From: a virus
Strand: one strand, 5' to 3'
Length of the DNA: 26,396 bases
Virus record (IMG/VR): IMGVR_UViG_3300017991_003139
Coordinates: 1 to 26,396 of that record
The translations under genes and the position numbers were made by a program. Each line of letters opens with the position of its first letter. Position 1 is the first letter of the stretch. Positions 2,880-26,157 of the stretch are shown here, piece after piece. The notes under the pieces are model-generated. The model saw only the letters and a list, made by a program, of their open reading frames with translations. It was not told where the DNA came from and did not search any database.

Positions 2880-2923
2880 GTTAAAGCCTCCCAAATTGGC
2901 TTAAAACCATGTTTAAATTAAAA
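2880..2923 (+). promoter_or_regulatory. Repeated 20-bp-spaced motif, copy A, upstream of tape measure gene
   Basis: GTTAAA at 2880 and CTTAAAA at 2900 are direct repeats exactly 20 bp apart, with CCCAAATTGG between them. A TATA-like TTTAAATTA follows at 2912. The start codon of the tape measure gene is about 50 bases downstream. Copies with the same 20-bp spacing occur at 10545, 20298 (- strand) and 24925. Either an operator with half-sites on one DNA face or a promoter (BRE-like AAAT plus TATA-like TTAAAA). Confidence 0.4.
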
Positions 2924-2955
2924 ATAATAATATAGATTGATTAGAAAGTGATATA

Positions 2956-10373: not shown

Positions 10374-10519
10374 TGAGTAAAAAATGTTGTGGAAAAGAAA
10401 TGGATGAATACTATTCAGTTTTTATTTGTCATGATTGTGGTAAACAAAAGTGGAAGAAGTTTGCTATAGATTATGCTAAGGATTTACAGAAACGTATGAA
10501 TAAGCCTGAAACTAAGTAA
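10373..10519 (+). CDS. 48-residue zinc-ribbon mini-protein
   Basis: A short gene whose ATG lies in the previous stop codon (TAATG). The product begins 'MSKKCCGKEMDEYYSVFICHDCGKQKWKKF'—split here as MSKKCCGKEMDEYYSV and FICHDCGKQKWKKF—giving a CC pair and a CxxC pair that could bind one zinc, followed by a basic helix. The overlap, intact frame and Cys spacing support it as real. Function unknown. It is followed by a 76-base gap with motif copy B. Confidence 0.65.
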   Translation: MSKKCCGKEMDEYYSVFICHDCGKQKWKKFAIDYAKDLQKRMNKPETK

Positions 10520-10544
10520 GTCTGGTATATTTACATTCATGAGA

Positions 10545-10571
10545 CTTAAAACTTCTCAGAATGGCTTAAAA
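10545..10571 (+). promoter_or_regulatory. Repeated 20-bp-spaced motif, copy B, upstream of adhesin gene
   Basis: CTTAAAA at 10545 and again at 10565, exactly 20 bp apart, with CTCAGAATGG between. The adhesin ATG is at 10596 with a GAGGTTT ribosome-binding site in between. Same layout as copies A, C and D. Confidence 0.45.
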
Positions 10572-10595
10572 TCAATATTATGAGGTTTAAAGAAA

Positions 10596-13500
10596 ATGTG
10601 GTTAGTAGTAGGATTAGTAGCATTCCTAGTATCTATTCTATTTGTAGGATGGGTATTTCAGGAAGAGATTAAGAAAGCATGGAAGAATAACAAAAAGAAA
10701 ATCGTAGCTGTAGCTATGGCTTCCTCTGCTGCATCAGGTGGCTTAATGATGCTTCCAGATAGTGCATTAGAGGATATGGAGATGACTCTTATAGATTCAT
10801 TAGATGTCTATGAGAAGTTTGGTTTTGATGTGGACAAAATAGAAAAACCGTATATATATGAGAAAGAAATATTATGCGAAGGACATATGCCTTTTGTTGT
10901 ACAACTAAATTTATCGTCTGATATATATATGGATAAAGCAGATTCTAGTAATTTACTTAGAACTACCCAAGATTATGATAAAGTCTCTTTTAAAAATAAA
11001 TTACTTATTGATGATTTTGAATATAAAATATTAGTAAAGAAGGATTATTCGTATGACATTCCAGTATATGAAGAGGTAGAGAAAAAAATATCTATATTTA
11101 ATAATACTACCCAGAAATCAGAATTTATACTAAAAACAGAAGAGATTGTTACTGACTACGAAACAATTGAAGATTACAAATATGTTTGGGAAGATTTATC
11201 TAGCTATGAACAATTATTAAAATCTAAAAATGCATTAGTAATTGATATTGTTGGATATACTAAAGCTCAAATTGGTAAACGTAAAGTAGATATTATTCCA
11301 ACACTTAGTTTTGAAAAACAAGCTAAAACATTCCCACAGTATGCGTGGTGGAATTCAAACTGGTTATTTTATAAATCTATTACATGGGATACTTCACAAA
11401 TTCCAAGTGAATTACATAATGTACCTATCCTTATTAATATTACTGACACAGATTTAAGAGATAATGCTCAAGCTGATGGTGGAGATATTGCTTTTGTCAC
11501 ACATGATAATTTAACACAATATTATCATGAAATTGAAGAATATGATTCTACAACTGGATATTTAGCTGCATGGGTCAACGTCACATCGATAAATACAACC
11601 ATACCAATTATTGGAATGTATTATGGGAATGCAGGTGCAGCAGACCAATGGGATGCAGCAAATACATGGAATGATAACTATTCTTGTGTATTACATATGA
11701 ACCAAGACCCAACAGGTGGTGCTGATACATTTACTGATAGTACAGGAAGTGGTAATGATGGTACTCCTGTAAACTTAGATGCTGCTGATTCAATTACTGG
11801 TATTGCATCTAATTGTATTAACTTTGATGGTGGTGGAGAAAGATTATCTCTTGATTCAAGTGCTGCTACATTCGGTACTTATGATAAAGGAACTTTTGAA
11901 TGTTGGGGATTACCTGATGCTGATTCAGGTTATTATTATACTTTAAATGATTATGATGATGCAGCAGATTATATATATCATGCCATTCGTGCATCTAATG
12001 ATTATGTTACTGCTGATATAGGTGATGGGGGGAGTTGGCGATTTGATGGTGATACAGATGTTGCTACTGGAAAGTTTGTACATGTTGTAGGTGGTAGTTA
12101 TGGAAATGGTGTTGGTAATAATTTCCTTTATACTGATGGATTGGAAAATTCACTAACATTTTTACAAGGTTCTAATGATGGTACTCATTGGGATGATACA
12201 GATGGTGGAGAGGATACATTTTCATTAGGTGGATTATATCGTGCTTCACCAATTTGGAGTACAATTACAATTGATGAGTTTAGGGTATCCACAACTGTTA
12301 GAAGTGCTGATTATTATTTATTACTATACAATAATGGGGCTAATGCAAGTGATGGGGGATTTTACACTTTAGGTTATGAGATAGGATTTGGTTTCACAAA
12401 TGAAAGTCCAACAGATGATAGTACAAATCAACAAATAATACCTAGAGTAAGTATAGACGTTGAAGAAAGTACAGGAGCATCATTTGATTTAACATTCGCA
12501 TCTAACTATTCTGGTTCATGGACAAACTATCAAACAAATACATCATGTTCTAACGGAACATATACTTGGGACTTTACAGGTGCAAATGTTTGTTTACAAT
12601 CATATTGGTGGAAAGTATATAAAGATAACGGTACAGATAATGTTACAAGTAGAATATATAAATTTACAACTGGACCTGCTCCATCAGTACAAGAGTTAAT
12701 AAGTCCACAAAATGAAAGTATATGGATAGATTTTAGTCCAACATGCACAGTAAATGTAACTGCTAACCCATATTTTGATAGTGTAAATGTTTCCTTTTCA
12801 TCTAATTATTCAGGAAGTTGGATAACATATAAGACAGATACATATGTTACAGTAGATACAACATCTAGTTGGGACTTTACAGGTGCAAGTGACGGATTAA
12901 CTACATATTGGTGGAAAGTAATAACATCTAATGGAACATATTCAAATACATATATTTATCACTTTACAACAAAAGAAGATATAAGTGATTGGCAATATTA
13001 CAAACAATTTGATATATGTGATGGAAATAATTCTAATTATAACTTATTAATAAATGTAACTAATAGTAGTGGTGGCGATATTAATTGTGAAAGTCATGCT
13101 CAAGCTGATTTCGATGATATTAGATTTTATAGAGATGATACAACATCTAATTTGTCATACTATATTAGTGAAGTTTCAAATAGTAACTATGCTATATTTA
13201 TAGTTACTTTGCCTACAGATATAACAGTTAATGATACATTAAGAATTTATTATGGATATGTTGGCACAGGAAATATTAGTGAAGACGACAGAATCTATGA
13301 AGGTACACTGTTACATAGTGATGATTTTTCTACTGACCCAAGTTTATCTGGTAGTGGACAGGATTGGTATATAGGTATTAATGGGACTAATAGCACAACA
13401 GGATTAAATTGGATATTTGATTATGAACAATTAGATGGAACATATAATTCATTTGGTCCTTATGGCAAATTATACCTTCAAAATACCACTGAGAGTGATG

Positions 13501-16500
13501 ATACAGGATTATATTTACATGATGACTTAGATACAGATGGTAGTGAAGGTTGGTCATTTGGAGATACTGGTGGGAGTGAAACATCCACATGGAAGGGATA
13601 TTACCAAGATGAATGGTATACAATTCAAGCTAAATCATCAGGCATTGGAACTGCACAAGGTGAATGGTTTCATGCAAATTCTACAGGAGAGAATTATACA
13701 ACTGGTGGCACATTTAATGTAGTGAGTCATAATGTATTTGACCGTATTCACTTCCATTTAGATGATTCTGGTGGTGGTTTTTCTTTGGTAACTGGAGAAT
13801 GGGACAATACAAATGAGGATATTCATTTCCGTTGGGAACGAACTGATTTATCTTTATATCAAGAATATAGATTTGATAATCTATATGTTTATGATATATT
13901 AACAACGTATGTATGTAATGTACAAAATGAGATAAATACTAAAACTCCAAATTTAGATTCTCCCTCTCCAGCAAATAATTCAATAGGTGCATCAATAGAC
14001 ACAGATTTAGGAGTTTCTATTACACACCCCCTAGGCATATCTAACGATATAGAATATAGAACAAATGCATCTGGAAGTTGGGAAACTATTGATACAGCTA
14101 CTAATATCGTTAATGGTAGTTCATCAATAACAACATCTGGTTACTTCACTGAATATAATACTAAGTATTGGTGGAGTGCCAATGCAAGTGATGTTGACGG
14201 ATATTGGGATAATGAAACTTATAATTTTATTACAGAGTTCAATACAACTGGATACAATTATAATGAAATAATTACAATTGACTCAACTTATGTAGATGCA
14301 GATATTACTGATTTTGTAGTACCAGTAGAAATAAATCATACGATATCACAGTATTGCGATAGCGGCAATTCTATCCTATTTACAACATCATCAGGAGGAT
14401 TACTTTATCATGATTTAGAATTCTTTAGTGATAATGTACCATCATATTGTCATGTTAGAATCCCTGCATCAGAAACAATTACATCAGCTAGTGATTATAC
14501 ATTTAAATTATATTTTAATAATAGTAATGCAGTATCAACTGCAAATGCAACTGAAGTTTGGGAGAATTATGAGATGGTTTATCATTTCTCTGAAGCATCA
14601 GGAGATATTATTGATAAAACAGGCAATACATACAATGCTACTGTTGCTTACAATCCAACATATAGAGCAGGAGGACAATTTGGTTATTCTATGGACTTTG
14701 ATGGTTCTGAAGACTTTTGTGCAATACAAAATAAATCATACTCATCTACAACACTATCAGATATGTTAGTTCTTGCCATAGTTAAAAGTGAAACTACATT
14801 TACTGGAACTGTAAGAGAGGTATTTTCATTTGATGAAAGTGATTACTATAGTATATCTACAGACAGTGATAGTGAACATCCTATATGGACTACAGAAAAT
14901 GATGCATTGGAGGGAGATGAAGACGTTACAAATAATACATGGGTAACATTAACAGGTGTATTTAATTCAGGAACGAGATATTTGTATATTAATGAATATC
15001 AAAATCAAAGTGATGTTGTTGCAAATACATTTGGTAGTGGTAATACAAGATATGGCTTTATTGCAGAGGGGTCTGATGCAACATCGTTTAATGGAACTAT
15101 AAGTAACACTCCATTTAATGGTAAGATTGATGAGATTATAGTTAGAGAATCAATTCCATCTGAATTGGATGCTTGGGTGAAACTTAAACATAATCTTTAT
15201 AATGGTAATGCAATCTCTGGTGTGGATAATACATGGGGAGAGCCAGTATTGAATAGTGCTTCTCCATCAAACGGTACAACATGTGTAGAATATGCAGTTG
15301 ATATTACTGTTGATATATCTGACCCAGATAATGAGAATATGGATGTTCATATATTTTCAAACTACACAGATGCAGAATGGATAGAAGTTGCAACAATAAA
15401 TGATGTAACAGATGGCGAATATACTGCTACTGACATAACAGAATTTAGTAATTCTGATACAAAATACTGGTATGCAGTCAATGTTAGTGATGCAACTGGA
15501 AATTCATTAAATGAGACTAGATATTTTACTACAGCAGATAATCAAGCAGTTAACACATATTATCCTAGTAATACTTCAACTGACATAGATTATTTACCTA
15601 CATTATTCTTTAATGTAACATCGACTTGTGATGTGGATGCTAGTGTTAGTTTTTATGAAAATACAACAGGAAGTTGGGTATTGATAGAAACTGATACTGG
15701 AATTAACTCTGGTAATGGAGCAAGTTGTACATACGATGAGGTATTAGAAGGAGATACTATGTATTGGTGGAAAGTTGTTGTTGATAATGGGTATGATGAT
15801 ACTACAACTTATATTTATCATTTCACAACTACAGCAAATCCAACTGCTGAAGTTAGTTATCCAACACATCAAACAATGGATGTAGAAAAATCCCCGACAG
15901 TATCAGTGTGGGCTAATGAATCTGATGGGAGGGATTTAAAAGTTACATTTTATAGATGGACAGGTGCAAGTTATTCACAATCCCAAGTAAATGATTCTGT
16001 TTCAAGTGGCACATTAGTAGAATGGATTTACGCAGAAGCCAATACAGCAGATACATTATATAACTGGTCAGTAAAGGTACAAGCATATGAGGATACTACA
16101 TTGTGTGGATATATACAAGTATATAAAGAATTTACAACTGCTGAAGCTCCTGTAATTGATAGTTATGTTCCTTCTGATGGAACATGGTATTGGAGTGTAA
16201 AGCCAGTATATTTCAATGTAACAATTTCTGACCCTAGTGGTTTAACAATGGATATTGAATTACATAATGGTAGTGGCTTTACAGATTTATTCAACTCATC
16301 ATCTAGTGTTAGTAATGGAACAGTTAGTCATACAAATAATACTTGGGTAGATGACTATGACACAATACATTGGTCAATATCTGTTGTAAATTCGAAAGGA
16401 TTTTATACTAATGATACAACTCCATATTTCTATAGGGGAAGAGCAGCGAGTGCATTATTTACATCAACTAACTTACCTGTAACAAATACTCCAGTTAGTT

Positions 16501-17162
16501 TTACAGATTCGTCAACAAATGCTACATCATGGGATTGGGACTTTGGTGATGCAAACACATCAACTAATCAAAATCCTAATAATAATTATAGTTATATGGG
16601 AAATTATACAGTAAATTTAACTATTAATGATGGGGAAACATATTGGCAAACTGTATATTATGAAACTTATATTTATATAGGATATAACCAAACAATAAGT
16701 AGTGGAGAAGATTACTTTATTTGGATGGGAAATACATCCACAATTACAGATATTAATACAACTATCGGAACTTCTAATTATACTTATTATTGGGATGGAA
16801 GTACATGGAATAATACAGGAACACTTTCAGTTCCACAGTTTAGTGTACTTAAGAAAAATAATTCATGGACTGCATCATTTAGAACTCCTGCTAATCACAC
16901 AGTAGATTATTCTGCTAAAAGAAATGTATCACTCAGTACAGGATGGAATGTTGAAGTATGGACTAATAATACTGCATCTACAACGAAAAGTATTTCAACT
17001 GGAATTCCACAATCAGTTCCAGAATTTGTATCATATTGGGATGGTTCAGCATGGGTAAATTATATTGCAACTAAATCACCTGATAGCTATAGTAGAACTG
17101 TTAATTTATATGATATCATCATTATTGCTATGGATGATAGTGACCATTGGGTGGAGATATAA
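10596..17162 (+). CDS. Giant adhesin-like surface protein (DUF2341, LamG-like, FN3-like, PKD)
   Basis: 2188 residues. The N-terminus has a strong hydrophobic segment (about 2-20), a Lys-rich loop and a weaker hydrophobic stretch (about 38-55), so it may be membrane anchored. Residues about 250-350 are DUF2341 ('WWNSNWLFYKSITWD', 'IGMYYGNAGA'), followed by a LamG/ConA-like domain (about 355-595). FN3-like repeats ending in 'YWWKV…FTT' occupy about 600-795; a second DUF2341 ('WQYYKQFDICDG') starts near 798, an FN3-like unit near 1109, and a third DUF2341 plus LamG-like domain near 1220-1545. Four more FN3-like units follow to about 1950, then a PKD domain ('SWDWDFGD', near 1979) and a Trp/Asn-rich C-terminus. 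Dozens of NxS/T sequons are visible. Role inferred: receptor binding on the virion, or a virus-made host surface protein. Confidence 0.85.
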   Translation: MWLVVGLVAFLVSILFVGWVFQEEIKKAWKNNKKKIVAVAMASSAASGGLMMLPDSALEDMEMTLIDSLDVYEKFGFDVDKIEKPYIYEKEILCEGHMPFVVQLNLSSDIYMDKADSSNLLRTTQDYDKVSFKNKLLIDDFEYKILVKKDYSYDIPVYEEVEKKISIFNNTTQKSEFILKTEEIVTDYETIEDYKYVWEDLSSYEQLLKSKNALVIDIVGYTKAQIGKRKVDIIPTLSFEKQAKTFPQYAWWNSNWLFYKSITWDTSQIPSELHNVPILINITDTDLRDNAQADGGDIAFVTHDNLTQYYHEIEEYDSTTGYLAAWVNVTSINTTIPIIGMYYGNAGAADQWDAANTWNDNYSCVLHMNQDPTGGADTFTDSTGSGNDGTPVNLDAADSITGIASNCINFDGGGERLSLDSSAATFGTYDKGTFECWGLPDADSGYYYTLNDYDDAADYIYHAIRASNDYVTADIGDGGSWRFDGDTDVATGKFVHVVGGSYGNGVGNNFLYTDGLENSLTFLQGSNDGTHWDDTDGGEDTFSLGGLYRASPIWSTITIDEFRVSTTVRSADYYLLLYNNGANASDGGFYTLGYEIGFGFTNESPTDDSTNQQIIPRVSIDVEESTGASFDLTFASNYSGSWTNYQTNTSCSNGTYTWDFTGANVCLQSYWWKVYKDNGTDNVTSRIYKFTTGPAPSVQELISPQNESIWIDFSPTCTVNVTANPYFDSVNVSFSSNYSGSWITYKTDTYVTVDTTSSWDFTGASDGLTTYWWKVITSNGTYSNTYIYHFTTKEDISDWQYYKQFDICDGNNSNYNLLINVTNSSGGDINCESHAQADFDDIRFYRDDTTSNLSYYISEVSNSNYAIFIVTLPTDITVNDTLRIYYGYVGTGNISEDDRIYEGTLLHSDDFSTDPSLSGSGQDWYIGINGTNSTTGLNWIFDYEQLDGTYNSFGPYGKLYLQNTTESDDTGLYLHDDLDTDGSEGWSFGDTGGSETSTWKGYYQDEWYTIQAKSSGIGTAQGEWFHANSTGENYTTGGTFNVVSHNVFDRIHFHLDDSGGGFSLVTGEWDNTNEDIHFRWERTDLSLYQEYRFDNLYVYDILTTYVCNVQNEINTKTPNLDSPSPANNSIGASIDTDLGVSITHPLGISNDIEYRTNASGSWETIDTATNIVNGSSSITTSGYFTEYNTKYWWSANASDVDGYWDNETYNFITEFNTTGYNYNEIITIDSTYVDADITDFVVPVEINHTISQYCDSGNSILFTTSSGGLLYHDLEFFSDNVPSYCHVRIPASETITSASDYTFKLYFNNSNAVSTANATEVWENYEMVYHFSEASGDIIDKTGNTYNATVAYNPTYRAGGQFGYSMDFDGSEDFCAIQNKSYSSTTLSDMLVLAIVKSETTFTGTVREVFSFDESDYYSISTDSDSEHPIWTTENDALEGDEDVTNNTWVTLTGVFNSGTRYLYINEYQNQSDVVANTFGSGNTRYGFIAEGSDATSFNGTISNTPFNGKIDEIIVRESIPSELDAWVKLKHNLYNGNAISGVDNTWGEPVLNSASPSNGTTCVEYAVDITVDISDPDNENMDVHIFSNYTDAEWIEVATINDVTDGEYTATDITEFSNSDTKYWYAVNVSDATGNSLNETRYFTTADNQAVNTYYPSNTSTDIDYLPTLFFNVTSTCDVDASVSFYENTTGSWVLIETDTGINSGNGASCTYDEVLEGDTMYWWKVVVDNGYDDTTTYIYHFTTTANPTAEVSYPTHQTMDVEKSPTVSVWANESDGRDLKVTFYRWTGASYSQSQVNDSVSSGTLVEWIYAEANTADTLYNWSVKVQAYEDTTLCGYIQVYKEFTTAEAPVIDSYVPSDGTWYWSVKPVYFNVTISDPSGLTMDIELHNGSGFTDLFNSSSSVSNGTVSHTNNTWVDDYDTIHWSISVVNSKGFYTNDTTPYFYRGRAASALFTSTNLPVTNTPVSFTDSSTNATSWDWDFGDANTSTNQNPNNNYSYMGNYTVNLTINDGETYWQTVYYETYIYIGYNQTISSGEDYFIWMGNTSTITDINTTIGTSNYTYYWDGSTWNNTGTLSVPQFSVLKKNNSWTASFRTPANHTVDYSAKRNVSLSTGWNVEVWTNNTASTTKSISTGIPQSVPEFVSYWDGSAWVNYIATKSPDSYSRTVNLYDIIIIAMDDSDHWVEI

Positions 17163-17818
17163 TGACAACTCCATTTCCATTTCCAGCGTATGGGAATGTC
17201 AATGATAATAATGGAAATCCTAAATCTGGACTAACAGTTACATTTTATGCTCCTGCTGGTCAGGTATCAGCTACTACAGATGCAAATGGTTACTTTCAAG
17301 CAGATTTACAAAGTATAGCTAGTGATGGAGATACAATATATGTTTCTGGAAATACTTCTAATTATTTTGGCTCTTCAAGTTATGTTTTAGATGTTAATGA
17401 CTTATCACATGATTTTTCATTTGATTTAGATAAAGAATATACAGATTTAAAGATATATTATGGGAGTGGTCTTAGTAGCTATGTTAGAGTATGGTGCAAT
17501 GATTGGAGAACGCACAATAAGGAATTATCTATCACAACAGTCCTATCAAAAGCCCAATTAGATAATATACGGGATAATATAAAACCTGGAGGAGTTAAGA
17601 AACTCATGGAAGTATTGGGTGAGATTACATATGTTGATACTACATATAATGGAGGGAACACATTAAAATTTACTCCTGTGGATATAGACAGTTCTGATTT
17701 AGCTACATATAGAAGAGAGACAACTGCTTATGTTAAAGCTATTGCCATTTCCCCAATGGAAGGACAGCAAGAGTTCATAGTTAAATTCAATTGCTTCATA
17801 TCAGGTTCAACATGGTGA
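17162..17818 (+). CDS. Tail/fibre protein: carboxypeptidase-regulatory-like domain plus small-tail-protein domain
   Basis: ATG at 17162 lies in the stop of the adhesin gene (TAATG) and has GGTGGAGAT before it; a longer frame from TTG at 17147 is less likely. Of 218 residues, about 5-60 form a transthyretin-like repeat ('GNVNDNNGNPKSGLTVTFYAP', 'TTDANGYFQADL') as used in surface proteins. From about 95 to the end it is a paralogue of the protein at 9969-10373 ('LKIYYGSG', 'CNDWRTHNKELSITT', 'VDTTYNGGNTLKFTPV'). It probably joins the adhesin to the tail or forms part of the fibre. Only 7 bases separate it from glmS. Confidence 0.75.
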   Translation: MTTPFPFPAYGNVNDNNGNPKSGLTVTFYAPAGQVSATTDANGYFQADLQSIASDGDTIYVSGNTSNYFGSSSYVLDVNDLSHDFSFDLDKEYTDLKIYYGSGLSSYVRVWCNDWRTHNKELSITTVLSKAQLDNIRDNIKPGGVKKLMEVLGEITYVDTTYNGGNTLKFTPVDIDSSDLATYRRETTAYVKAIAISPMEGQQEFIVKFNCFISGSTW

Positions 17819-17825: not shown

Positions 17826-19631
17826 ATGTGTGGCATCATTGGTTATTCTGGTCATCGTAATGCAAGAGATATACTTATTAAAGGTTTAAAGAAACTAGAA
17901 TACCGAGGATATGATTCATCTGGAATATCGATATTGAATAAAAAGATAACTACATACAAAGAAGTAGGACATGTTAATAAGTTAATTAAGAAAGTTCCAA
18001 AACTAGATGGGAATATAGGAATTATACATAATAGATGGGCTACTCACGGTAAGATATGTATAAAGAATGCTCATCCTCACATTAGTAATAATAAAAAGTT
18101 TTCTTTGGTACATAATGGTATTATAGAGAATTATGCAGAGATAAAAGATAAGCTTATCAAAAAAGGATACGTATTCTCATCAGAAACGGACTCTGAAGTG
18201 ATTATCCACCTGATAGATGATAAGTATAAGGGTGACTTAAGAAAAGCTGTCTATGAGGCTCTAAATGAGGTTCAGGGCTATTATGCTATCATAGTTATGT
18301 GTTCAGACCATCCAAATACATTGATTGGTGCAAGAAAAGGCTGTCCATTAGTTGTTGGGCATGGAAGAGAAGAAAATTTTCTATCATCTGACATCACACC
18401 AATTATTAAATATACTGATGTTGTTACTTACTTACACAATGATGATATATGTGAGATTACAAATGTTGGGTGCAGAATATTTGATTCTAATAATAATCAA
18501 ATAAAAAGAGTTAGGGATGTAACTACATATAGTGCTGATTGTATAGATAAAATGAATTATGACCATTATATGCTAAAAGAAATTTATGAACAAGAGAATG
18601 CAATAAAAGTTGCTACAAATAATTATATAAAAAATAATATAATAAATTTTGGAGATAAAATAAATGAGCAGATTGCTAAGAATCCTAGCATGGTTAATAT
18701 CATTGCTTGTGGTACATCATATCATGCTGGTCTAATAGGAAAATATTTAATTGAAGGATTGGCTAAGATACCCGTCAGAGTAGAAATGTCATCAGAGTAT
18801 AGTTACTATGGAGTGTATAATAGAAATGCTCTTAGTATCGGTATTAGCCAATCTGGTGAGACTTATGATACATTGTCAGCTATACAGAAATCTATAGATA
18901 GTGGTTGTGATTGTTTAGGAATAACTAACATAAGAAAAAGTTCTATCACTAGACTATGTGAAAATACTATACTTACCCATTGCACTCCAGAGATTGGTGT
19001 TGCAGCAACTAAGACATTTATAGTACAAGTATTTATTATGTTACTCATTGCATTAAAACTCGCACTAAGTAATAAATCAATAACAATAGATAAATATAAT
19101 TATTATATAAATGAGATTAGAAGGATACCTAACTATATTAATTACTCACTTAATCAAGTAGAATCAATAAAAAGTTTAGCAAATAAATTAAGTGATTATA
19201 AAAATATTATATTTGTTGGTAGAGGATTAGGATATCCTTTATCGATGGAGGGAGCTTTAAAACTAAAAGAGATATCATATATTCATTCTAGTGCTTACTG
19301 TGCAGGTGAACTCAAACATGGACCTTTTGCTTTATTGTCTAAAGATGTTCCAGTAATAGCTATAATGAATCATGATAAAACATATGATAAGATGATAGCA
19401 AACGTAGAAGAGATAAAAGCTAGGAACTCCCCGATAGTTGAAATCTGTAGTGATGAAGATAAACAATTAGATAAATATACAGATTTGATAAACTATCCAC
19501 GCATATCAAAAGAATTATCTTATTTTCCAATTATAGTCCTGCTACAACTGATTGCTTATCATATTGCTAATAAAAAAGGCTGTTCAATAGACAAGCCAAG
19601 AAATCTTGCTAAGTCTGTGACAGTTGAATAA
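17826..19631 (+). CDS. glmS: Glutamine-fructose-6-phosphate aminotransferase (isomerizing)
   Basis: Converts fructose-6-phosphate and glutamine to glucosamine-6-phosphate and glutamate, the entry to UDP-GlcNAc. 601 residues, the usual full length. The N-terminal amidotransferase keeps Cys2 ('MCGIIGYSG'), 'EYRGYDSSG', 'HNRWATHG' (about 76), 'HNGIIENY' and 'ETDSEV' (about 120). The isomerase half has two SIS domains with 'CGTSYHAG' (about 295), 'SQSGETYDT' (about 342), 'MEGALKLKEISYIHS', 'GELKHGP' and the terminal 'DKPRNLAKSVTVE' that carries the catalytic Lys. All key residues are present, so it should be active. GGTGAT lies 7 bases before the ATG. It follows the tail operon directly, which is odd for a housekeeping enzyme and points to an acquired metabolic gene. 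Confidence 0.97.
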   Translation: MCGIIGYSGHRNARDILIKGLKKLEYRGYDSSGISILNKKITTYKEVGHVNKLIKKVPKLDGNIGIIHNRWATHGKICIKNAHPHISNNKKFSLVHNGIIENYAEIKDKLIKKGYVFSSETDSEVIIHLIDDKYKGDLRKAVYEALNEVQGYYAIIVMCSDHPNTLIGARKGCPLVVGHGREENFLSSDITPIIKYTDVVTYLHNDDICEITNVGCRIFDSNNNQIKRVRDVTTYSADCIDKMNYDHYMLKEIYEQENAIKVATNNYIKNNIINFGDKINEQIAKNPSMVNIIACGTSYHAGLIGKYLIEGLAKIPVRVEMSSEYSYYGVYNRNALSIGISQSGETYDTLSAIQKSIDSGCDCLGITNIRKSSITRLCENTILTHCTPEIGVAATKTFIVQVFIMLLIALKLALSNKSITIDKYNYYINEIRRIPNYINYSLNQVESIKSLANKLSDYKNIIFVGRGLGYPLSMEGALKLKEISYIHSSAYCAGELKHGPFALLSKDVPVIAIMNHDKTYDKMIANVEEIKARNSPIVEICSDEDKQLDKYTDLINYPRISKELSYFPIIVLLQLIAYHIANKKGCSIDKPRNLAKSVTVE

Positions 19632-19724: not shown

Positions 19725-20216
19725 TCATTTTTTCTTTAATCCAAGAATTAATCTTTGTTTTTGTATACCCCTAGGAGTTCTTCTTAAGTAAGTTGCCATA
19801 TCCTCATCAGATAGTGATAAATAGTTTTCTCTTAGATAATCATTGTCTCTTACACTATATACACATCCTATATTTGGGTATCCTAATGAATGATTTATTA
19901 ATTTCCATTTCCTGTTGCTACAATACTTACTATCTCCGTATAATCTAACATAATCATTAAATAATCCTCCTTTAATATATACATAGTAACAATCCTTATG
20001 TTTTGGATTATGGTGTATAGATTTTCGTAGAGATGTTTCTATGCCTATACTATTTAAAATATTTGACACATTTATCGCCCAATCATATTCAACTGTTGTT
20101 ACAGCACATATAAGTGGTCTTTTTCTATGCGAGTATGATACCCAACCATCTGTAGATATCAATCCCAATATCCAATTTATTATTATCTTCTTCTCTTGTT
20201 CATTATTATTAGTCAT
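19725..20216 (-). CDS. Free-standing LAGLIDADG homing endonuclease
   Basis: From ATG at 20216 (GTGAT just before; a GTG at 20225 is the alternative) 163 residues. 'INWILGLISTDGWVSY' is a LAGLIDADG-type helix with the catalytic Asp, followed by the beta strand pattern of the fold ('CAVTTVEYDWAINVSNIL', 'IGIETSLRKSI', 'YYVYIKGG'). Only one motif is seen, so it would act as a homodimer. The C-terminus 'DNDYLRENYLSLSDEDMATYL…IQKQRLILGL' is the Myb/SANT-like DNA-binding end common on phage homing and HNH proteins. It is the last gene of the - strand cluster and appears intact. Confidence 0.85.
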   Translation of the reverse strand: MTNNNEQEKKIIINWILGLISTDGWVSYSHRKRPLICAVTTVEYDWAINVSNILNSIGIETSLRKSIHHNPKHKDCYYVYIKGGLFNDYVRLYGDSKYCSNRKWKLINHSLGYPNIGCVYSVRDNDYLRENYLSLSDEDMATYLRRTPRGIQKQRLILGLKKK

Positions 20217-20271
20217 ATTTATCACATTTGTTTACTTTGGTGCATATAATTGCGAAATAATGAAAAAACGT

Positions 20272-20514: not shown

Positions 20515-20844
20515 TCATAATTTCAGCCCTATAATAGAATCCTCATCAATTTTATTAATATCATCATCTGAGTCTATTCTGTATATGTACAATTCAGATA
20601 TATTATCTTTACATACACTACAATTAAATACTACTTCTCTATGTTTAAATATTCCCGTAATCACAGTTTCTATATCTAATTTTATAGTAAGATGCATATT
20701 ACTACTACTATAATTCCAATATAAACATTTACCAACACAAGCATTATCATCGATGATAATTAGTAATTTTAATACTTTTCCAGTAGGTGCAGAAAATCTC
20801 ATATTATATATTAGAAAATCGCTAACTGTATTTATTCTTCTCAT
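20515..20844 (-). CDS. Small paralogous-family protein, member 1 (C-terminal DEDSIIGLKL)
   Basis: 109 residues; preceded by AAAGGTGAT, the best ribosome-binding site in the - strand cluster, so it may be translated independently. It has 'GKVLKLLIIIDDNACVGKCL' near 22-41, matching the 'G-K-hydrophobic-x-I-G' core of its relatives, and ends in an acidic stretch plus 'IIGLKL', the family's terminal signature. A longer middle part and two CxxC-like Cys ('CSVCKD') set it apart. Function unknown. Confidence 0.65.
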   Translation of the reverse strand: MRRINTVSDFLIYNMRFSAPTGKVLKLLIIIDDNACVGKCLYWNYSSSNMHLTIKLDIETVITGIFKHREVVFNCSVCKDNISELYIYRIDSDDDINKIDEDSIIGLKL

Positions 20845-20897
20845 TGATTATCACCTTTTGTAATATATATCTTCCTATCTATACAAAACAATTAAGT

Positions 20898-21167
20898 CTA
20901 AAATAATAATGAAGAATTTATACCAGTAATCCCATCAAATATTTTACTATATTTGAATATTGGTTGTGTTGATGCAGATAATACCCTAACATCGTTATAT
21001 TTACATTTATCACATTGTAAATCTAAATTACTATAGTCTATCCCACCGTCTGGTTTAAGATGCCATTGTTTACCTTCAATTGATGTATCACTTATGTGAT
21101 TACAGTGTTTACAACTAAATTTCACTTTTGTTTCTAAAACTACATAACTACTCATTATATCACTCAT
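20898..21167 (-). CDS. Zinc-ribbon protein with two CxxC pairs
   Basis: 89 residues, ATGA overlap with the gene upstream (21164-21376). 'FSCKHCNHISD' and 'LQCDKCKYNDVRVL' about 32 residues apart make one four-Cys zinc ribbon. The C-terminus 'GITGINSSLLF' only faintly recalls the neighbouring family's tail. No enzymatic motif. Probably a nucleic-acid- or protein-binding accessory expressed with the small-gene cluster. Confidence 0.7.
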   Translation of the reverse strand: MSDIMSSYVVLETKVKFSCKHCNHISDTSIEGKQWHLKPDGGIDYSNLDLQCDKCKYNDVRVLSASTQPIFKYSKIFDGITGINSSLLF

Positions 21168-21376
21168 GTCAAATAACCTAACTTTCTAAGACGGTCTTTT
21201 ATTTTTTCTTCTTCTTGTTTGGTTAATTCTGTTGCTTTATCAATATCTTCTAACTCATCTAGCCTTTGCCTAACAATACCTAATATAAATTTATCAACAC
21301 TATCATATTTCTTACCAAGTTGTTTTCGTATACGATGGAATAAACTATTTGGTATTAATACTCTCAATTCTGGCAT
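21164..21376 (-). CDS. Ribbon-helix-helix-like DNA-binding protein
   Basis: 70 residues. The short N-terminal strand 'ELRVLIP' followed by helix 'SLFHRIRKQLGKKYDSVDKF' and helix 'ILGIVRQRLDELED' is the ribbon-helix-helix layout (compare archaeal 'v..l...i.....sv.e.i...l...l'). The C-terminus 'TKQEEEKIKDRLRKLGYL' is a tail common on small archaeal RHH proteins. GAGGT stands before the ATG, which overlaps the previous stop as TAATG. It is the only clear transcription-factor candidate in the window and might act on the repeated CTTAAA motif or autoregulate. Confidence 0.7.
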   Translation of the reverse strand: MPELRVLIPNSLFHRIRKQLGKKYDSVDKFILGIVRQRLDELEDIDKATELTKQEEEKIKDRLRKLGYLT

Positions 21377-21546
21377 TATTTCATACCTCGTTTAGTTCTC
21401 ATAGTCCTTTTACTATACTTAATATCTATAAATGATATAGCTGATTTACAATGTGGACAATACCATCCATCTTTATTTATTTCTATGTCATTCTTAAAAC
21501 AAACTGGACAGGTTTCTCCCTTAACTCCTTTCTTAATTCTTACCAT
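21376..21546 (-). CDS. 56-residue zinc-ribbon protein
   Basis: ATG at 21546 (ATG at 21552 is an in-frame alternative), stop overlapping the next ATG as TAATG. 'GETCPVCFKNDIEINKDGWY' followed by 'CPHCKSA' gives two CPxC pairs 17 residues apart, a compact zinc ribbon, with basic ends ('VRIKKGVKG', 'KRTMRTKRGMK'). The basic tails suggest nucleic-acid binding. Cluster position and overlap support it. Confidence 0.7.
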   Translation of the reverse strand: MVRIKKGVKGETCPVCFKNDIEINKDGWYCPHCKSAISFIDIKYSKRTMRTKRGMK

Positions 21547-21558
21547 CTTCATCACTCA

Positions 21559-22092
21559 TTATTCTTTCATATAATTTTCATACCATTCACACCATGCAGC
21601 AGAACAATCTTTGCATAACGATGCATATTGACCACACATGGGAATAAATGGAATTCCTTTTGCTTTCTTTTTACAATTATCACACACAAATGAAAAGTCG
21701 CTTGTATTAATAATTATGTGCTTTTCTCTATACATATCCTCTATTTCTGTGTTCATTTCTTTGTTTTTAAAGTCCTCTTTCATTTTTTCTACATTTCCTC
21801 TAATTAATTTTGATTTTGTGTTTGGTTTTATATCTACTTTATTATCTTGATAGGAACAATGTTTACATTCCCAGATATCTGTAAATCCAAATACCTCATC
21901 TCCGCATTCTGCACAGATTACATAATATTCCCTTCCTACTTCTTTACCTTCTTTTATTATTGGTTCATTTACTATTCTTACTAATGATGAGCCACAGTGA
22001 CATCTGGAGATATTTTCTACGTTAAGGTCGGAATGCTTTTGAGTTATCATATATTCTTTTTCTACTAATACTTCTTTTTTATCTTCATGCAT
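21559..22092 (-). CDS. Multi-zinc-ribbon protein, 177 residues
   Basis: AAAGGTAGAT stands before the ATG. Two zinc-binding regions are visible: residues about 32-80 with 'CHCGSSLVRI', 'CAECGDEVFG' and 'CKHCSYQD', and about 136-170 with 'FVCDNCKKKAKG', 'MCGQYASLCKDC' and 'WCEWYE'. Between them is a charged, helical linker. No catalytic motif. The largest product of the - strand cluster after the PseB-like enzyme. Could be a transcription-modulating or scaffold protein; unknown. Confidence 0.75.
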   Translation of the reverse strand: MHEDKKEVLVEKEYMITQKHSDLNVENISRCHCGSSLVRIVNEPIIKEGKEVGREYYVICAECGDEVFGFTDIWECKHCSYQDNKVDIKPNTKSKLIRGNVEKMKEDFKNKEMNTEIEDMYREKHIIINTSDFSFVCDNCKKKAKGIPFIPMCGQYASLCKDCSAAWCEWYENYMKE

Positions 22093-22097
22093 ACTAT

Positions 22098-22226
22098 CTA
22101 CCTTTTTAATTCATTATAATTACAATTCTTACAAGTATATTTAATTATTTCTTTTCTACCCATAAATATAGAAATTTTCTTCATCGGCTTTCCACATTTC
22201 TTACATTTCTTAATATCTTCACTCAT
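22098..22226 (-). CDS. 42-residue zinc-ribbon mini-protein
   Basis: ATGA overlap with the stop of the gene upstream (22223). 'KCKKCGKPMKKISIF' and 'TCKNCNYNELKR' give two CxxC pairs 19 residues apart. Complete, basic, and followed five bases later by the next ORF. Overlap and Cys spacing make it credible despite its size. Confidence 0.65.
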   Translation of the reverse strand: MSEDIKKCKKCGKPMKKISIFMGRKEIIKYTCKNCNYNELKR

Positions 22227-22519
22227 AGTAGATACCCAGACTCTTCTGATTTAGATAATAAATAAACAACACTTCCTAGCCAAAAATAACGTTCTTTATT
22301 TCTTCTTGCACTAATCTCATTACCTTCAATTCCTCTAATTGACTCGTACATATTCTTATTTAATATTTTTCCTAATATTTTATTGTTGCTTGGATATTCG
22401 ACAATTATTAATCTTCCCCTTAAATCTTCTTTCCAATTATCTAATGCTGCGTGGTGTTTATATTTTCCATCATCACAATCATATACTCGTCTTACATTCA
22501 TTATATTTAACTTTTTCAT
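22223..22519 (-). CDS. Small paralogous-family protein, member 2 (C-terminal SEESGYLL)
   Basis: ATG at 22519 overlaps the previous stop as ATGA; a GTG at 22525 is the alternative. 98 residues. 'NWKEDLRGRLIIVEYPSNNK' then 'ILGKILNKNMYESI' is the family core (W, G-R/K, hydrophobic strand, I/L-G-x-I-L). It ends 'VVYLLSKSEESGYLL', the shared tail with Gly four codons before the stop. Function unknown. Confidence 0.7.
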   Translation of the reverse strand: MKKLNIMNVRRVYDCDDGKYKHHAALDNWKEDLRGRLIIVEYPSNNKILGKILNKNMYESIRGIEGNEISARRNKERYFWLGSVVYLLSKSEESGYLL

Positions 22520-22686
22520 TTCCACTCACTCTTCAGCACATCAAAACATTTCTTGCTAATCTTAATACTGACTTCGTTTTCGTTTTTCTTCTTATAGTTC
22601 AGAAAATAATTATTTCCACGTTTACTAATTGAGAAGCCTCTCCTATCCATTTTATATACTGGACAGTAAAAATATTTTTCTCCCAT
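22516..22686 (-). CDS. 56-residue basic hypothetical protein
   Basis: Starts in the previous stop (TAATG) and its own stop overlaps the next ATG (ATGA). 'MGEKYFYCPVYKMDRRGFSI' and 'KNENEVSIKISKKCFDVLKS' look like a small alpha/beta protein. It lacks the family tail of its neighbours. The exact overlaps at both ends are the main support. Confidence 0.65.
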   Translation of the reverse strand: MGEKYFYCPVYKMDRRGFSISKRGNNYFLNYKKKNENEVSIKISKKCFDVLKSEWK

Positions 22687-22982
22687 TATATCATCATCCC
22701 TAAATACTCTTCTTCATCTAATAAATAGACTGCATCGTTTGGATTGAATAATTTAATATAACCTTTATGATACATATTCCTTTGATATGGATGTGTAACT
22801 TTGATAACTTTCAATGTCTTAAATGAAAATTGATGAATTAATTCTGCAACTAATTCTGTATCTCCTATTTTATCACTATATCTATTTCTAACAACGTATA
22901 TCTTTTTAGTTTTTAACTCATCATCCCAATCGGTAATAACTCCTCTATTATCTTTAGTTATCTTAATAGTTAATTGTTTCAT
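22686..22982 (-). CDS. Small paralogous-family protein, member 3 (C-terminal DEEEYLGMMI)
   Basis: 98 residues, ATGA overlap with the gene upstream. 'GVITDWDDELKTKKIYVVRN' leads into 'ELVAELIHQFSFKTLKVIKV', which aligns well with member 6 ('EIIAKIVDAFTFKAVRIIKQ'). It ends 'AVYLLDEEEYLGMMI'. All visible secondary structure is beta-like; a small barrel is plausible. Members 3 and 6 are the closest pair in the array. Confidence 0.72.
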   Translation of the reverse strand: MKQLTIKITKDNRGVITDWDDELKTKKIYVVRNRYSDKIGDTELVAELIHQFSFKTLKVIKVTHPYQRNMYHKGYIKLFNPNDAVYLLDEEEYLGMMI

Positions 22983-23242
22983 ATTAATAAACCAGCTACC
23001 ATTTCATCATCGGTGATTAGATAACATTCTGATGGAAAATATTTATTCAGTCCAATTATATTAGAACGCTGTGTATCTGAGATGAACTTTTTCTCTATCT
23101 TAAATATATAACGTTCATAAAATAACATTCTCTCAAATGTTAATTTGCAAATAAATATATTCCAAGGGTAAACTATCATAAAATGTTCATTTAGACATGC
23201 ACCAATTGTATTATGTATATCTTCCTTTGACATTCTAATCAT
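22979..23242 (-). CDS. Small paralogous-family protein, member 4 (C-terminal DDEMVAGLLI)
   Basis: 87 residues, ATGA overlap on both sides. The ribosome-binding site GTTGGAGTT is inside the codons for the last residues of the gene upstream. The N-terminal half ('HNTIGACLNEHFMIVYPWNI') is different from other members, but the end 'ECYLITDDEMVAGLLI' carries the full tail signature. Function unknown. Confidence 0.68.
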   Translation of the reverse strand: MIRMSKEDIHNTIGACLNEHFMIVYPWNIFICKLTFERMLFYERYIFKIEKKFISDTQRSNIIGLNKYFPSECYLITDDEMVAGLLI

Positions 23243-23490
23243 AACATAACTCCAACTAAATCATCATCATTGTCTAATAAAAATACTTTATCTTCAGATG
23301 ACAATGGATATATTCTAAGATTTTTCCCACAGTTAGTCTTTCCTTCTTCTACGCTATAAGCACTTCTATAGTATATATTTCCAATTTTTTTCTCCCCATT
23401 TGATAATAGAACACATATTAGTTTATAATTTAAATCTCGATTATAGCCAATTATGCATCCATATTTATCAAGCTTCAATTCCCTCATCAT
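23239..23490 (-). CDS. Small paralogous-family protein, member 5 (C-terminal DDDLVGVML)
   Basis: ATG at 23490, in ATGA overlap with the stop of the gene upstream and 5-9 bases after GGATGG, is preferred over the in-frame ATG at 23499; 83 residues. 'LDKYGCIIGYNRDLNYKLIC' then 'VLLSNGEKKIGNIYY' is the family core, and the protein ends 'KVFLLDNDDDLVGVML'. Function unknown. Confidence 0.7.
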   Translation of the reverse strand: MMRELKLDKYGCIIGYNRDLNYKLICVLLSNGEKKIGNIYYRSAYSVEEGKTNCGKNLRIYPLSSEDKVFLLDNDDDLVGVML

Positions 23491-23804
23491 AACAACCATC
23501 CAGCAACTTCATGCTTATCTAGTAATCTAATGCAGTCATTTATCCATATCGTTACTTTCTCTCCAGATTTGAAACTAATCCCTTTCTGTTTTATTATCCT
23601 AACTGCTTTAAATGTAAAAGCATCTACAATTTTAGCAATGATTTCATATTGCTCTGTAGTACCGACTTCAAAATCTTGTCTGTATGTTATTAAAGCATAT
23701 CTTCCAACGTATTCTTCTTTAAAATCTACAATATAACCTTCATTATCATTATAGTCGTATTCTTGTGTTGAATTGTATCGCTTAACAACATTCAATGGGG
23801 TCAT
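23487..23804 (-). CDS. Small paralogous-family protein, member 6 (C-terminal KHEVAGWLL)
   Basis: 105 residues, ATGA overlap with the gene upstream. 'GYIVDFKEEYVGRYALITYR' and 'YEIIAKIVDAFTFKAVRIIK' align with member 3 through the body as well as the tail. It ends 'CIRLLDKHEVAGWLL'. Function unknown; the pair 3/6 is the best seed for a family alignment. Confidence 0.72.
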   Translation of the reverse strand: MTPLNVVKRYNSTQEYDYNDNEGYIVDFKEEYVGRYALITYRQDFEVGTTEQYEIIAKIVDAFTFKAVRIIKQKGISFKSGEKVTIWINDCIRLLDKHEVAGWLL

Positions 23805-24109
23805 AATTTTAAACCTACATATTCTTCTTCTGATATTAAATAATAATTCGTTGGATTTACATCTGTATAATAATCTGTATTATGAAAGATACGTATTCTA
23901 TCATCATTAACATTCCAACATAAATCATTCAGTGATTCTATTTCTTTATATTTATATTTTGATAGTATAATTCCAATGCATTTAGAATATTTATCAATGA
24001 TGAGAATATATTTTCCCTCCATGGATTTATTCCAACATTTTATATGGCTCTTTTGTATACTCCCATCTGATGATATTGGTGTGGAATTATTTAAAATTAA
24101 TTTTTCCAT
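23801..24109 (-). CDS. Small paralogous-family protein, member 7 (C-terminal EEEYVGLKL)
   Basis: 102 residues, starting three bases after the previous stop. 'IKCWNKSMEGKYILIIDKYS' and 'KCIGIILSKYKYKEIE' show the family core (W, G-K, hydrophobic strand, IG-x-I-L), closest to member 2. It ends 'NYYLISEEEYVGLKL'. Function unknown. Confidence 0.72.
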   Translation of the reverse strand: MEKLILNNSTPISSDGSIQKSHIKCWNKSMEGKYILIIDKYSKCIGIILSKYKYKEIESLNDLCWNVNDDRIRIFHNTDYYTDVNPTNYYLISEEEYVGLKL

Positions 24110-24112
24110 TTT

Positions 24113-24403
24113 TTAATACACTTCTATTACATCTGGAATTTCTGTTACTATTAAACCTAAGCCAAGCACTTTAGATACTTTACTAACATCTCGCTTATCA
24201 TTCGTTTGAGATTGAATATTCCTAAGACACTCAATATATAAATCTGCATAATCTTTTGATATCACTACATATTTCGGAGTGTATCCTTTTTGCTTAACAG
24301 AGATTACCTTAGTCTGTATTTTTACAATTAATCCTTTGAATATGTCTTTTGATGTATCCATCTTCTCTAATTTCTTTTTGGTCTCTTCTAATTTGTCTAC
24401 CAT
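24113..24403 (-). CDS. Hypothetical 96-residue protein, unrelated to the array
   Basis: GAGGAAATAATT precedes the ATG. An N-terminal Lys/Glu coiled-coil ('LEETKKKLEKMDTS') is followed by 'GYTPKYVVISKDYADLYIEC' and 'VLGLGLIVTEIPDVIEVY'. This 'x-P-x-x-I-x-I-S-x-x-x-Y-x-x-L … GL-x-V-x-V-(acidic)' pattern is familiar from small phage and plasmid proteins of unknown function, but I cannot name the family. It lacks the array's tail signature. Confidence 0.7.
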   Translation of the reverse strand: MVDKLEETKKKLEKMDTSKDIFKGLIVKIQTKVISVKQKGYTPKYVVISKDYADLYIECLRNIQSQTNDKRDVSKVSKVLGLGLIVTEIPDVIEVY

Positions 24404-24405
24404 AA

Positions 24406-24570
24406 TTATTTCCTCTTTAATTTATCATAATACATACAGTTGCCTGTCTTCATAGAATGTCTTTGAAGTATTAAGCATCTATGTCTATCTTTATCATAAA
24501 ATCTACACTTGTTACATTTTGCTCTTAGAAGTAATCTTTCTATTTTCCATATAATTTTTGTTAGTGTCAT
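24406..24570 (-). CDS. 54-residue Cys-rich basic protein
   Basis: ATGA overlap with the stop of member 8. 'LLLRAKCNKCRFYDKDRHRC' and 'MKTGNCMYYDKLKRK' provide four Cys (residues 19, 22, 32 and 45) that could hold one zinc; otherwise Arg/Lys-rich. The start lies exactly where the overlap pattern predicts. Function unknown. Confidence 0.65.
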   Translation of the reverse strand: MTLTKIIWKIERLLLRAKCNKCRFYDKDRHRCLILQRHSMKTGNCMYYDKLKRK

Positions 24571-24836
24571 ATTAAATACCCTGCCACATCATCTTCATTG
24601 TCTAAAACAACAACAAAATCCCAATTAATTATTGTCCATATATTACCATCTATTACTGGTGCTTCACATTTATATATTCCATCGCAATAATCATTAACTA
24701 TAAATCCGATATCGCATTCTGTGCTTTTAAGGATTGTACCTGTAATCTGAGAAGAGAGATGATAAGTTCTATATTCTCCAGTATAGATAAATGTAAACTT
24801 TTCACCAGTGAATTCATTATTATAAAGAAATAACAT
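24567..24836 (-). CDS. Small paralogous-family protein, member 8 (C-terminal NEDDVAGYLI)
   Basis: 89 residues, first gene of the small-protein cluster. AGAGGTAT lies 7 bases before the ATG. The body ('FTFIYTGEYRTYHLSSQITG', 'DIGFIVNDYCDGIYKC') is the most diverged, but it ends 'FVVVLDNEDDVAGYLI' with every element of the tail. An 89-base gap upstream with TATA-like elements suggests a promoter here. Confidence 0.68.
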   Translation of the reverse strand: MLFLYNNEFTGEKFTFIYTGEYRTYHLSSQITGTILKSTECDIGFIVNDYCDGIYKCEAPVIDGNIWTIINWDFVVVLDNEDDVAGYLI

Positions 24837-24855: not shown

Positions 24856-24874
24856 TATTTAAATTGATTTTAAA
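24856..24874 (-). promoter_or_regulatory. Candidate archaeal promoter for the small-gene cluster
   Basis: On the - strand TTTAAAAT (from 24874) and TTTAAATA (from 24863) match the archaeal TATA-box consensus in the only sizeable gap between the PseB-like gene and the cluster. The distance to the ATG (about 20-30 bases) is short, and in DNA this A+T-rich such matches are common, so this is tentative. Confidence 0.3.
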
Positions 24875-24922: not shown

Positions 24923-24951
24923 GCCTTAAACACTTTCAGATTGCCTTAAAA
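24923..24951 (+). promoter_or_regulatory. Repeated 20-bp-spaced motif, copy D, over the 3' end of the PseB-like gene
   Basis: GCCTTAAA at 24923 and GCCTTAAA at 24943: identical 8-mers 20 bp apart, with ACTTTCAGATT between. It is the most regular copy but overlaps the last codons and stop of the - strand PseB-like gene and points towards the right, where no + strand gene follows. It could act on the - strand cluster if orientation does not matter. Confidence 0.35.
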
Positions 24952-25885
24952 GCTCTTTTAATTGTTTAACATTTAATAAACATTCTTTATTATTACTAGC
25001 ATATTCAAATTCAGTAGCAAAGATTGACCTACCATATTCGTCTTTAATAACATAATAATCATAATCTTCTATACAATGCACACTTTCCTCTTTGGATATC
25101 AGGACTTCATGTAGTCTTTCTCCTTTCTGTGCACCAAGTAGTCTAATCTTAGCATCTGGAGCTATAGCTTTTGCCATTGTCATAATATCAGAACTTGGTA
25201 ATTTAGGCACAAAGATTTCTCCACCACACATTAGAGATATACTTTTTATTATAAACTGGACTATGTTTAATGGAGTCAGCCAGAATCTAGTCATGTCTTT
25301 CTCTGTGATAGTCAATTCTCCTCTTTTCTTTTGTTCATTAAATAATGGGACAATACTTCCTCTGCTACCAATCACATTACCACTTCTCACACATGAAAAC
25401 ATAGTTTTAGTGCCTCTGTTAGCTTCTATAGTTAGTTTCTCTCCTATCATCTTTGTAGCACCATACAGATTAACTGGATAGACTGCTTTATCTGAACTAA
25501 CAAATAAGACTTTCTCTACATTATTTTTGATTGCTGCATTATTTATATTGTCAGTTCCATCTATATTTGTTTTGATTACTTCTGTTGGATTCTCCACTCC
25601 GATATGAACATGCTTAAGTGCTGCTGTATGGATTACGATATCCACTCCTTTCATTACTTCATCCATTCGTTCTTTGTCTCTAACATCGCCAATGATGAAC
25701 TCAATATTTGAATTGCCTTCCCATTCTCTTCTCATCATACATTGTGTGTACTCCCCACTTGAAAGTATTCTGACCTCCTTTGGTTTATAATTAGAAAGTA
25801 TATATTTTGCTAATGTACTTCCTATTGTTCCTGTACCACCTGTAATTAGGATGGTTTTTCCATCTATTGCATTTTTATAATTCAT
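24926..25885 (-). CDS. UDP-N-acetylglucosamine 4,6-dehydratase-like (PseB/FlaA1 family)
   Basis: ATG at 25885, in ATGA overlap with the previous stop and after GGAGTTG, is chosen over the in-frame ATG at 25930; 319 residues, normal for short PseB-type enzymes. It has the Rossmann 'TGGTGTIG' (about 15-22), 'GDVRD', 'HTAALKHVHIGVENP', 'SSDKAVYPVNLYGATK' (about 130-145, with the active-site Asp-Lys and Tyr-x-x-x-Lys), 'MTRFW' and 'AIAPDAKIRLLGAQKGERLHEV'. The family turns UDP-GlcNAc into a 4-keto-6-deoxy sugar (often with C5 inversion) for pseudaminic acid, bacillosamine or related sugars. No partner aminotransferase is in the window. Confidence 0.88.
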   Translation of the reverse strand: MNYKNAIDGKTILITGGTGTIGSTLAKYILSNYKPKEVRILSSGEYTQCMMRREWEGNSNIEFIIGDVRDKERMDEVMKGVDIVIHTAALKHVHIGVENPTEVIKTNIDGTDNINNAAIKNNVEKVLFVSSDKAVYPVNLYGATKMIGEKLTIEANRGTKTMFSCVRSGNVIGSRGSIVPLFNEQKKRGELTITEKDMTRFWLTPLNIVQFIIKSISLMCGGEIFVPKLPSSDIMTMAKAIAPDAKIRLLGAQKGERLHEVLISKEESVHCIEDYDYYVIKDEYGRSIFATEFEYASNNKECLLNVKQLKELLRQSESV

Positions 25886-26157
25886 ATATTCAACAACTCC
25901 TTTATTTCTGGAAATTGTTTTGAAATCCATTCTTTCCTATATCTTTTTAATAACTTTTGACCAAAACTAGGGCTAGTAATATTTTGATTATAATATCCAC
26001 ATACCCATCCGTCATGGTATATAATAATTTCTCCATCCCCCAGTTCGTATTTATCTACAGTTACATCTTTATTATCATTTGCATATTTGATTACTTTATT
26101 ATCATAATATCCACGTTCTAGTAAGAATATAATCTGTTTTAATTTTTCTGTATTCAT
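25882..26157 (-). CDS. Hypothetical protein upstream of the PseB-like gene
   Basis: ATG at 26157 (five bases after GAGTGA; GTG at 26166 is an alternative) gives 91 residues and a stop overlapping the PseB start as ATGA. Body: helix 'KLKQIIFLLERGYYDNKVIK', a beta hairpin 'YELGDGEIIIYHDGWVCGYY' and a basic helix 'GQKLLKRYRKEWISKQFPEI'. Looks like a compact alpha/beta domain; not recognised. Coupling suggests co-expression with the sugar enzyme. Confidence 0.68.
   Translation of the reverse strand: MNTEKLKQIIFLLERGYYDNKVIKYANDNKDVTVDKYELGDGEIIIYHDGWVCGYYNQNITSPSFGQKLLKRYRKEWISKQFPEIKELLNI

Follow-up and report, generated by a model that had tools for sequence, protein, structure and literature searches.

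In archaeal viruses such as SIRV2, anti-defence genes sit among small unannotated genes (PMC11065993). Among small barrel proteins, the bacterial protein Rof (YaeO) has an Sm-like barrel that acts as a protein inhibitor, of Rho, and not as an RNA binder (PMC11018626). The locus described here is a set of eight small genes, m1 to m8, on the minus strand of IMG/VR virus record IMGVR_UViG_3300017991_003139, which was analysed over its whole length (26,396 bases; the window) and is probably a fragment of a viral genome. In the early and anti-defence regions of such viruses, as in this array, small orphan genes are clustered that have diverged and show very little sequence conservation. Most of the SIRV2 genes are single genes under a shared promoter (PMC11065993); the copies of the array instead have a protein tail in common, and each overlaps its downstream neighbour. 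The small barrel predicted for m3 may be of the same kind as the five-stranded one of the Sm/LSm proteins (PF01423; yeast SmF, 1n9r; archaeal SmAP, 1i5l), but Sm/LSm proteins carry their helix at the N-terminus and the m3 model at the C-terminus, and the array members have neither a sequence relationship to Sm/LSm nor the conserved RNA-site residues. To Rof, which has no paralogue array, the members are likened by analogy only.

The eight proteins end in a common tail, and we tentatively read them as ancient paralogues that go back to a single small beta-barrel protein, and each of which would bind a different host or defence protein, in a probably archaeal tailed virus; we give this reading somewhat less than an even chance. 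All eight open reading frames (ORFs) proposed in an initial annotation of this DNA were present and ended as quoted there:

m1, 24567..24836, minus strand: 89 amino acids (aa); first gene after an 89-nucleotide (nt) gap; tail VVLDNEDDVAGYLI
m2, 23801..24109, minus strand: 102 aa; tail YYLISEEEYVGLKL
m3, 23487..23804, minus strand: 105 aa; structure modelled; tail IRLLDKHEVAGWLL
m4, 23239..23490, minus strand: 83 aa; alternative in-frame ATG start at 23499; tail FLLDNDDDLVGVML
m5, 22979..23242, minus strand: 87 aa; tail YLITDDEMVAGLLI
m6, 22686..22982, minus strand: 98 aa; tail VYLLDEEEYLGMMI
m7, 22223..22519, minus strand: 98 aa; in-frame GTG start possible at 22525; tail VYLLSKSEESGYLL
m8, 20515..20844, minus strand: 109 aa; own leader with a strong Shine-Dalgarno (SD) sequence (AGGTGAT); tail INKIDEDSIIGLKL

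The shared C-terminal tail

The C-terminal signature claimed for these proteins was found in 8/8 members as a hydrophobic strand, an acidic cluster and a glycine at position -4 from the C-terminus, with L or I at position -1, also in 8/8. A pattern of this form, which is post hoc in that it was derived from the eight tails themselves, matched all eight members, 0/110 other ORFs (from the window and the sister contig IMGVR_UViG_3300018080_000575) and 0.05-0.2% of within-protein shuffles. A leave-one-out profile over the last 12 residues was also scored against 441 control tails from sequence of low guanine-plus-cytosine content (low-GC). No more than one of the 441 equalled any member, with or without the glycine column, and the tail of m1 exceeded 441/441. 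When the last four residues were removed, m8, m7 and m5 became less distinct, being reached by 7, 13 and 2 of the 441 controls, respectively. No residue other than M1 and the tail glycine is conserved throughout the family.

Because the stop codons overlap the next starts and the glycine codon stands in SD position, a ribosome-binding-site artefact had to be controlled for. The stop of each member overlaps the next start codon as ATGA (7/8) or, after m6, as TAATG (1/8). The glycine codon (GGN) lies 9-11 nt ahead of that start, i.e. in the position of the ribosome-binding site, and forms part of the sole SD-like stretch (3-4 nt, spacing 7-9 nt) for most downstream genes. Glycine at -4 was also found in 7/33 other ATGA gene pairs, some of them from contigs picked by a related pattern, and GYLT, a similar ending, is found in one non-member gene of the window. 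With the glycine column omitted, seven of the eight members scored above all 51 ATGA-ending tails. The ribosome-binding site as the whole cause of the tail was ruled out by the leave-one-out profile lacking this column, while part of the glycine conservation may be a translation signal for the next gene. The initial annotation had overlooked this overlap, which accounts for part of the glycine conservation but not for the remainder. As judged by these comparisons, the tail is common to all eight members, beyond chance and beyond ribosome-binding-site constraint.

Similarity of the bodies

For comparisons of the bodies the last 14 residues were cut off; the E-values come from a tiny database and are valid for these comparisons only. 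The body of m3 matched those of m6 (E=6e-7) and m7 (E=2e-4). A profile of m3, m6 and m7 was tested against 110 decoy ORFs and, for each member, 500 of its own shuffles; the m2 body scored above 110/110 decoys and 500/500 shuffles. The m4 body matched m7 at E=0.005, its profile scores being reached by 6-14/500 shuffles, and the score of the m1 body was reached by 29/500 shuffles in the leave-one-out test and by 36/500 with the three-member profile. On this sequence evidence, homology of the bodies beyond the tail is firm for m2, m3, m6 and m7, probable for m4 and borderline for m1. That only the last ten residues match, which the initial annotation had named as the outcome speaking against a family, does not apply to m2, m3, m6 and m7; for m5 and m8 no body match was obtained. 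The proposed fast divergence is supported for the core members, mean pairwise identity being 34% in the tail versus ~19% in the body.

These results bear on the alternative that the tail alone is shared, either as a docking or degradation tag or as a recombining 3' end carrying the next ribosome-binding site, on bodies that are partly unrelated. The members m1, m5 and m8 do stand out by their tails alone, DNA-level similarity is seen at the 3' ends of some copies (44 nt in m4/m1, 37 nt in m6/m4), and the glycine codon provides a GG 7-9 nt before the next start, as the likewise ending non-member (GYLT) also illustrates. However, four members, and probably a fifth, share a body without the tail, the profile without the glycine column separates all members, also from ATGA-ending genes, and in the m3 model described below the tail is a natural structural unit, made up of the last strand and a capped helix. 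We consider this alternative unlikely.

Predicted structure

AlphaFold2 was run for m3, on an eight-row alignment of the members, and for m8. The model of m3 (predicted local distance difference test, pLDDT, 79.4; predicted template modelling score, pTM, 0.72) is a small all-beta barrel followed by a C-terminal helix, with strands at residues 22-25, 36-44, 50-59, 64-72, 75-77, 83-85 and 91-94 and the helix at 97-104. According to this one model, three elements would make up the tail signature: the final strand of the barrel (YLL/FLL), a helix-capping box and, at the C-terminus, a short helix (..VxGxxL). An S, T, D or N followed by acidic residues is typical of helix-capping boxes, and on reading the sequences such a residue is seen at the strand end of every tail, followed by mostly acidic ones. 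The order of elements in the m8 model likewise ends with a strand and a helix (101-108); the confidence of this model (pLDDT 52, pTM 0.44) is too low to judge the fold, and its alignment included the other members. The beta-rich small-barrel fold assigned to all eight proteins in the initial annotation can thus be kept for the core members, by the m3 model and body homology, and not as a fold common to all eight, given the low score of m8.

A Foldseek search of the m3 model against the PDB gave nothing below 1e-3, and the best viral predicted structure was an uncharacterised 150-aa protein (E 3.4e-3, template modelling score 0.52). VIA-align returned nearly only Sm/LSm proteins, with Z up to 6.4 and a root-mean-square deviation of 2.4 Å over 63 residues; a Z of 6.4 sits under the level of trust given by VIA-align itself, and values below 8 may reflect a mere common arrangement. 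The likeness of the predicted m3 barrel to Sm/LSm is suggestive. A PADLOC match of m3 to Cas11a (E=0.0017) was treated as chance: Cas11 is a helical protein, m3 is predicted to be all-beta, and no other member matches.

If the likeness to Sm/LSm were real, the paralogues might form a hetero-oligomeric ring that binds RNA, as the eukaryotic Sm/LSm proteins do, and a heteromeric ring could well be built from seven to eight paralogues that are co-translated and have diverged. Nearly all top structural matches of m3 point this way, but the limited Z is accompanied by several negative results. At E<=1 the LSm profile PF01423 matched nothing in the window, nor did the Pfam scan reveal an LSm match, and hhalign against archaeal LSm gave scores of 8.6-8.8, under those of column-shuffled controls (up to 14.1). 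The N-terminal helix of Sm proteins is absent from the m3 model, where the first long strand is preceded by a helix of just 3 residues, and M1 and the tail glycine are the only residues kept family-wide. As far as sequence can tell, an LSm relationship of the family fails, and an RNA-binding ring appears improbable. It would be just as much of a long shot for the seven to eight co-translated barrel paralogues to build a defined hetero-oligomer, as the virus's own equivalent of the Sm/LSm ring, or to serve as adaptors with a constant tail and a variable barrel, joining different host targets to one partner via the C-terminal helix.

Arrangement of the genes and their neighbours

The initial annotation had called the eight genes a tandem array. 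Five of them, m2 to m6 (23801-22686), are directly contiguous, whereas m1, m7 and m8 are set apart by other genes: m1 and m2 have two unrelated genes (54 aa and 96 aa) between them, m6 and m7 one gene (56 aa), and m7 and m8 five genes, several of which look zinc-ribbon-like by eye. The array is found among short zinc-ribbon and orphan ORFs, at a distance from the virion genes and on the strand opposite to them. Short cysteine-pair (zinc-ribbon-like) ORFs of 42, 177, 59 and 89 aa were seen at window positions 20898-22226 (minus strand), between m7 and m8. As for an Aca-like DNA-binding regulator, which may be linked to anti-CRISPR or anti-defence genes, a 70-aa orphan at 21164-21376 is by eye a candidate ribbon-helix-helix protein, and had no Pfam or PHROG match. 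Upstream of m1 one further feature was recorded:

24856..24863, minus strand: possible archaeal TATA box TTTAAATA, a pattern match

TATA-like patterns were not enriched over chance across the window (22 found versus 17.6 expected).

The virus and its probable host

Up to ~19.6 kb, the plus strand carries tail genes, which encode a tail terminator, the tape measure, tail proteins and a PKD-domain protein of 2,188 residues, together with the gene of a GlmS-like enzyme. Mostly short genes, among them that of a sugar-nucleotide epimerase upstream of the array, occupy the minus strand between 26.3 and ~19.7 kb. The sister contig is 99.9% identical over window positions 1-17805 and represents the same virus; it extends 6.7 kb further upstream, including the major capsid protein, and stops short of the array. 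The best matches of the major capsid protein are haloarchaeal tailed viruses, the tape measure protein partially matches a Methanosarcinales virus, and the closest relatives of GlmS (43-44% identity) are found in ANME-2 (anaerobic methanotroph) and Methanosarcinales genomes. Because the best matches of these three proteins point to archaea, the host of this tailed virus is probably archaeal.

Several other features of the virus were observed. The GlmS-like glucosamine-6-phosphate synthase is full-length (17826-19631, plus strand), and a Polysacc_synt_2 nucleotide-sugar enzyme is encoded by the same virus at 24926-25930 (minus strand); together they suggest sugar-nucleotide synthesis during infection. 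A free-standing LAGLIDADG homing endonuclease (19725-20225, minus strand) lies between GlmS and the block of small genes. The tape measure gene (2956-8370, plus strand) contains an insert at approximately residues 304-664 that resembles an intein (first residue C, end GNS), with PHROG matches to ribonucleotide reductase and thymidylate synthase families. The products of two adjacent tail-region genes (338-775 and 775-1248, plus strand) resemble mutual paralogues by eye, and the proteins of 9969-10373 and 17147-17818 (plus strand) have, also by eye, a common C-terminal stretch (..NTLFDNITPGAYRQLFEVLADKYFADTTF.. and ..QLDNIRDNIKPGGVKKLMEVLGEITYVDTTY..). In L002 (487-3294, plus strand) one 935-aa protein joins a prohead protease (Peptidase_S78) to an AAA ATPase and ends in an acidic, scaffold-like stretch; its AAA part has a 55-57% identical counterpart in two other low-GC viral contigs.

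Search for relatives

Similar arrays in related viruses, which had been expected to support the family, were not found in the phage, plasmid, IMG/VR and archaeal-genome searches, of which the IMG/VR scans were of limited sensitivity. Searches by tblastn gave nothing convincing, either with m3 and with all eight members joined against 50,697 phage records or with all eight joined against 72,556 plasmid records. Scans of IMG/VR (two with array members, two with tail patterns and four with virion genes) yielded no relative of the family; they require near-exact short peptides, which diverged arrays would escape, so that absence is weak evidence. DNA patterns of the tail plus ATGA gave 17 stretches over IMG/VR, mostly short or in unrelated frames and none family-like; such patterns would recover only about three of the eight members. 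Four viral contigs (L023, L025, L026 and L028) carry an identical short frame, ASWDCDEELVGVIV, with an ATGA-overlap end, which is unrelated to the family.

Relatives of the protease-AAA gene (L057-L061) came without any family member. Pfam, PHROGs and NCBIfam scans of the members gave nothing significant, and a PDB sequence search with family profiles gave nothing. Among the genomes searched by profile, 186 and 393 from the order and phylum to which the ANME-2 relative belongs (the sets partly overlap), three weak hits (E 0.001-0.01) turned up; they were dismissed as about chance level for that many genomes, and the one inspected resembles a thymidylate kinase. As far as these searches and the sequences tell, the family is an orphan, ancient and translationally coupled set of paralogues in one virus.

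Possible roles of the members

Small barrels are frequent in virion parts, and the members could on this ground be minor parts of the virion or of its assembly, decoration or neck proteins for example. The array, however, lies on the strand opposite to the tail genes, and no PHROG structural family matched below E 0.05, which makes a virion role highly improbable. A strict counter-defence island, in which each member would inhibit one host defence system (CRISPR, toxin-antitoxin etc.), would agree with an accessory block that keeps to one strand and is made up of small, diverged orphans, and with the setting of archaeal anti-defence genes among small unannotated genes (PMC11065993). Such an island is quite unlikely: the SIRV2 genes are mostly single, with a common promoter (PMC11065993), whereas those of the array are coupled, and no match to a known anti-defence protein was found, the PADLOC models covering defence and not anti-defence.

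In the reading that we prefer, the eight genes would descend from one ancestral small beta-barrel gene, and the tail would have been kept as the conserved structural end of the domain, completing the fold. Because the genes overlap at stop and start codons on one strand, the members would be made together, probably in similar, co-ordinated amounts. The surfaces of the barrels would have diverged widely while the tail stayed constant, and each member may bind a different host or defence protein, like the small inhibitors of a viral early region. The body net charge ranges from -6 to +6 among members, which is at odds with a single nucleic-acid or ligand site common to all of them. Different protein partners are proposed because of this spread of charge, the 19% body identity and the accessory position, and host-directed protein binding would be the likeliest role.

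Several observations weigh against old barrel paralogues with separate host targets. In the profile tests the bodies of m5 and m8 were indistinguishable from their own shuffles. The barrel fold is predicted with confidence for m3 alone among the eight, and with the low-confidence model of m8 a VIA search returned barrels like those of avidin and lipocalin (Z up to 4.3), and not LSm. The evidence for a host-directed role consists of gene context and divergence, and host takeover or counter-defence, as suggested in the initial annotation, is still conjecture.

Arrays of diverged small genes in viruses of uncultured archaea mostly resist interpretation; in this one, common ancestry would be traceable via a structural tail. 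Should the members bind different host proteins, they would serve directly as probes for host targets or defence systems of an archaeal lineage that has been little studied. Were they to assemble together, they would represent a new viral multi-subunit machine.

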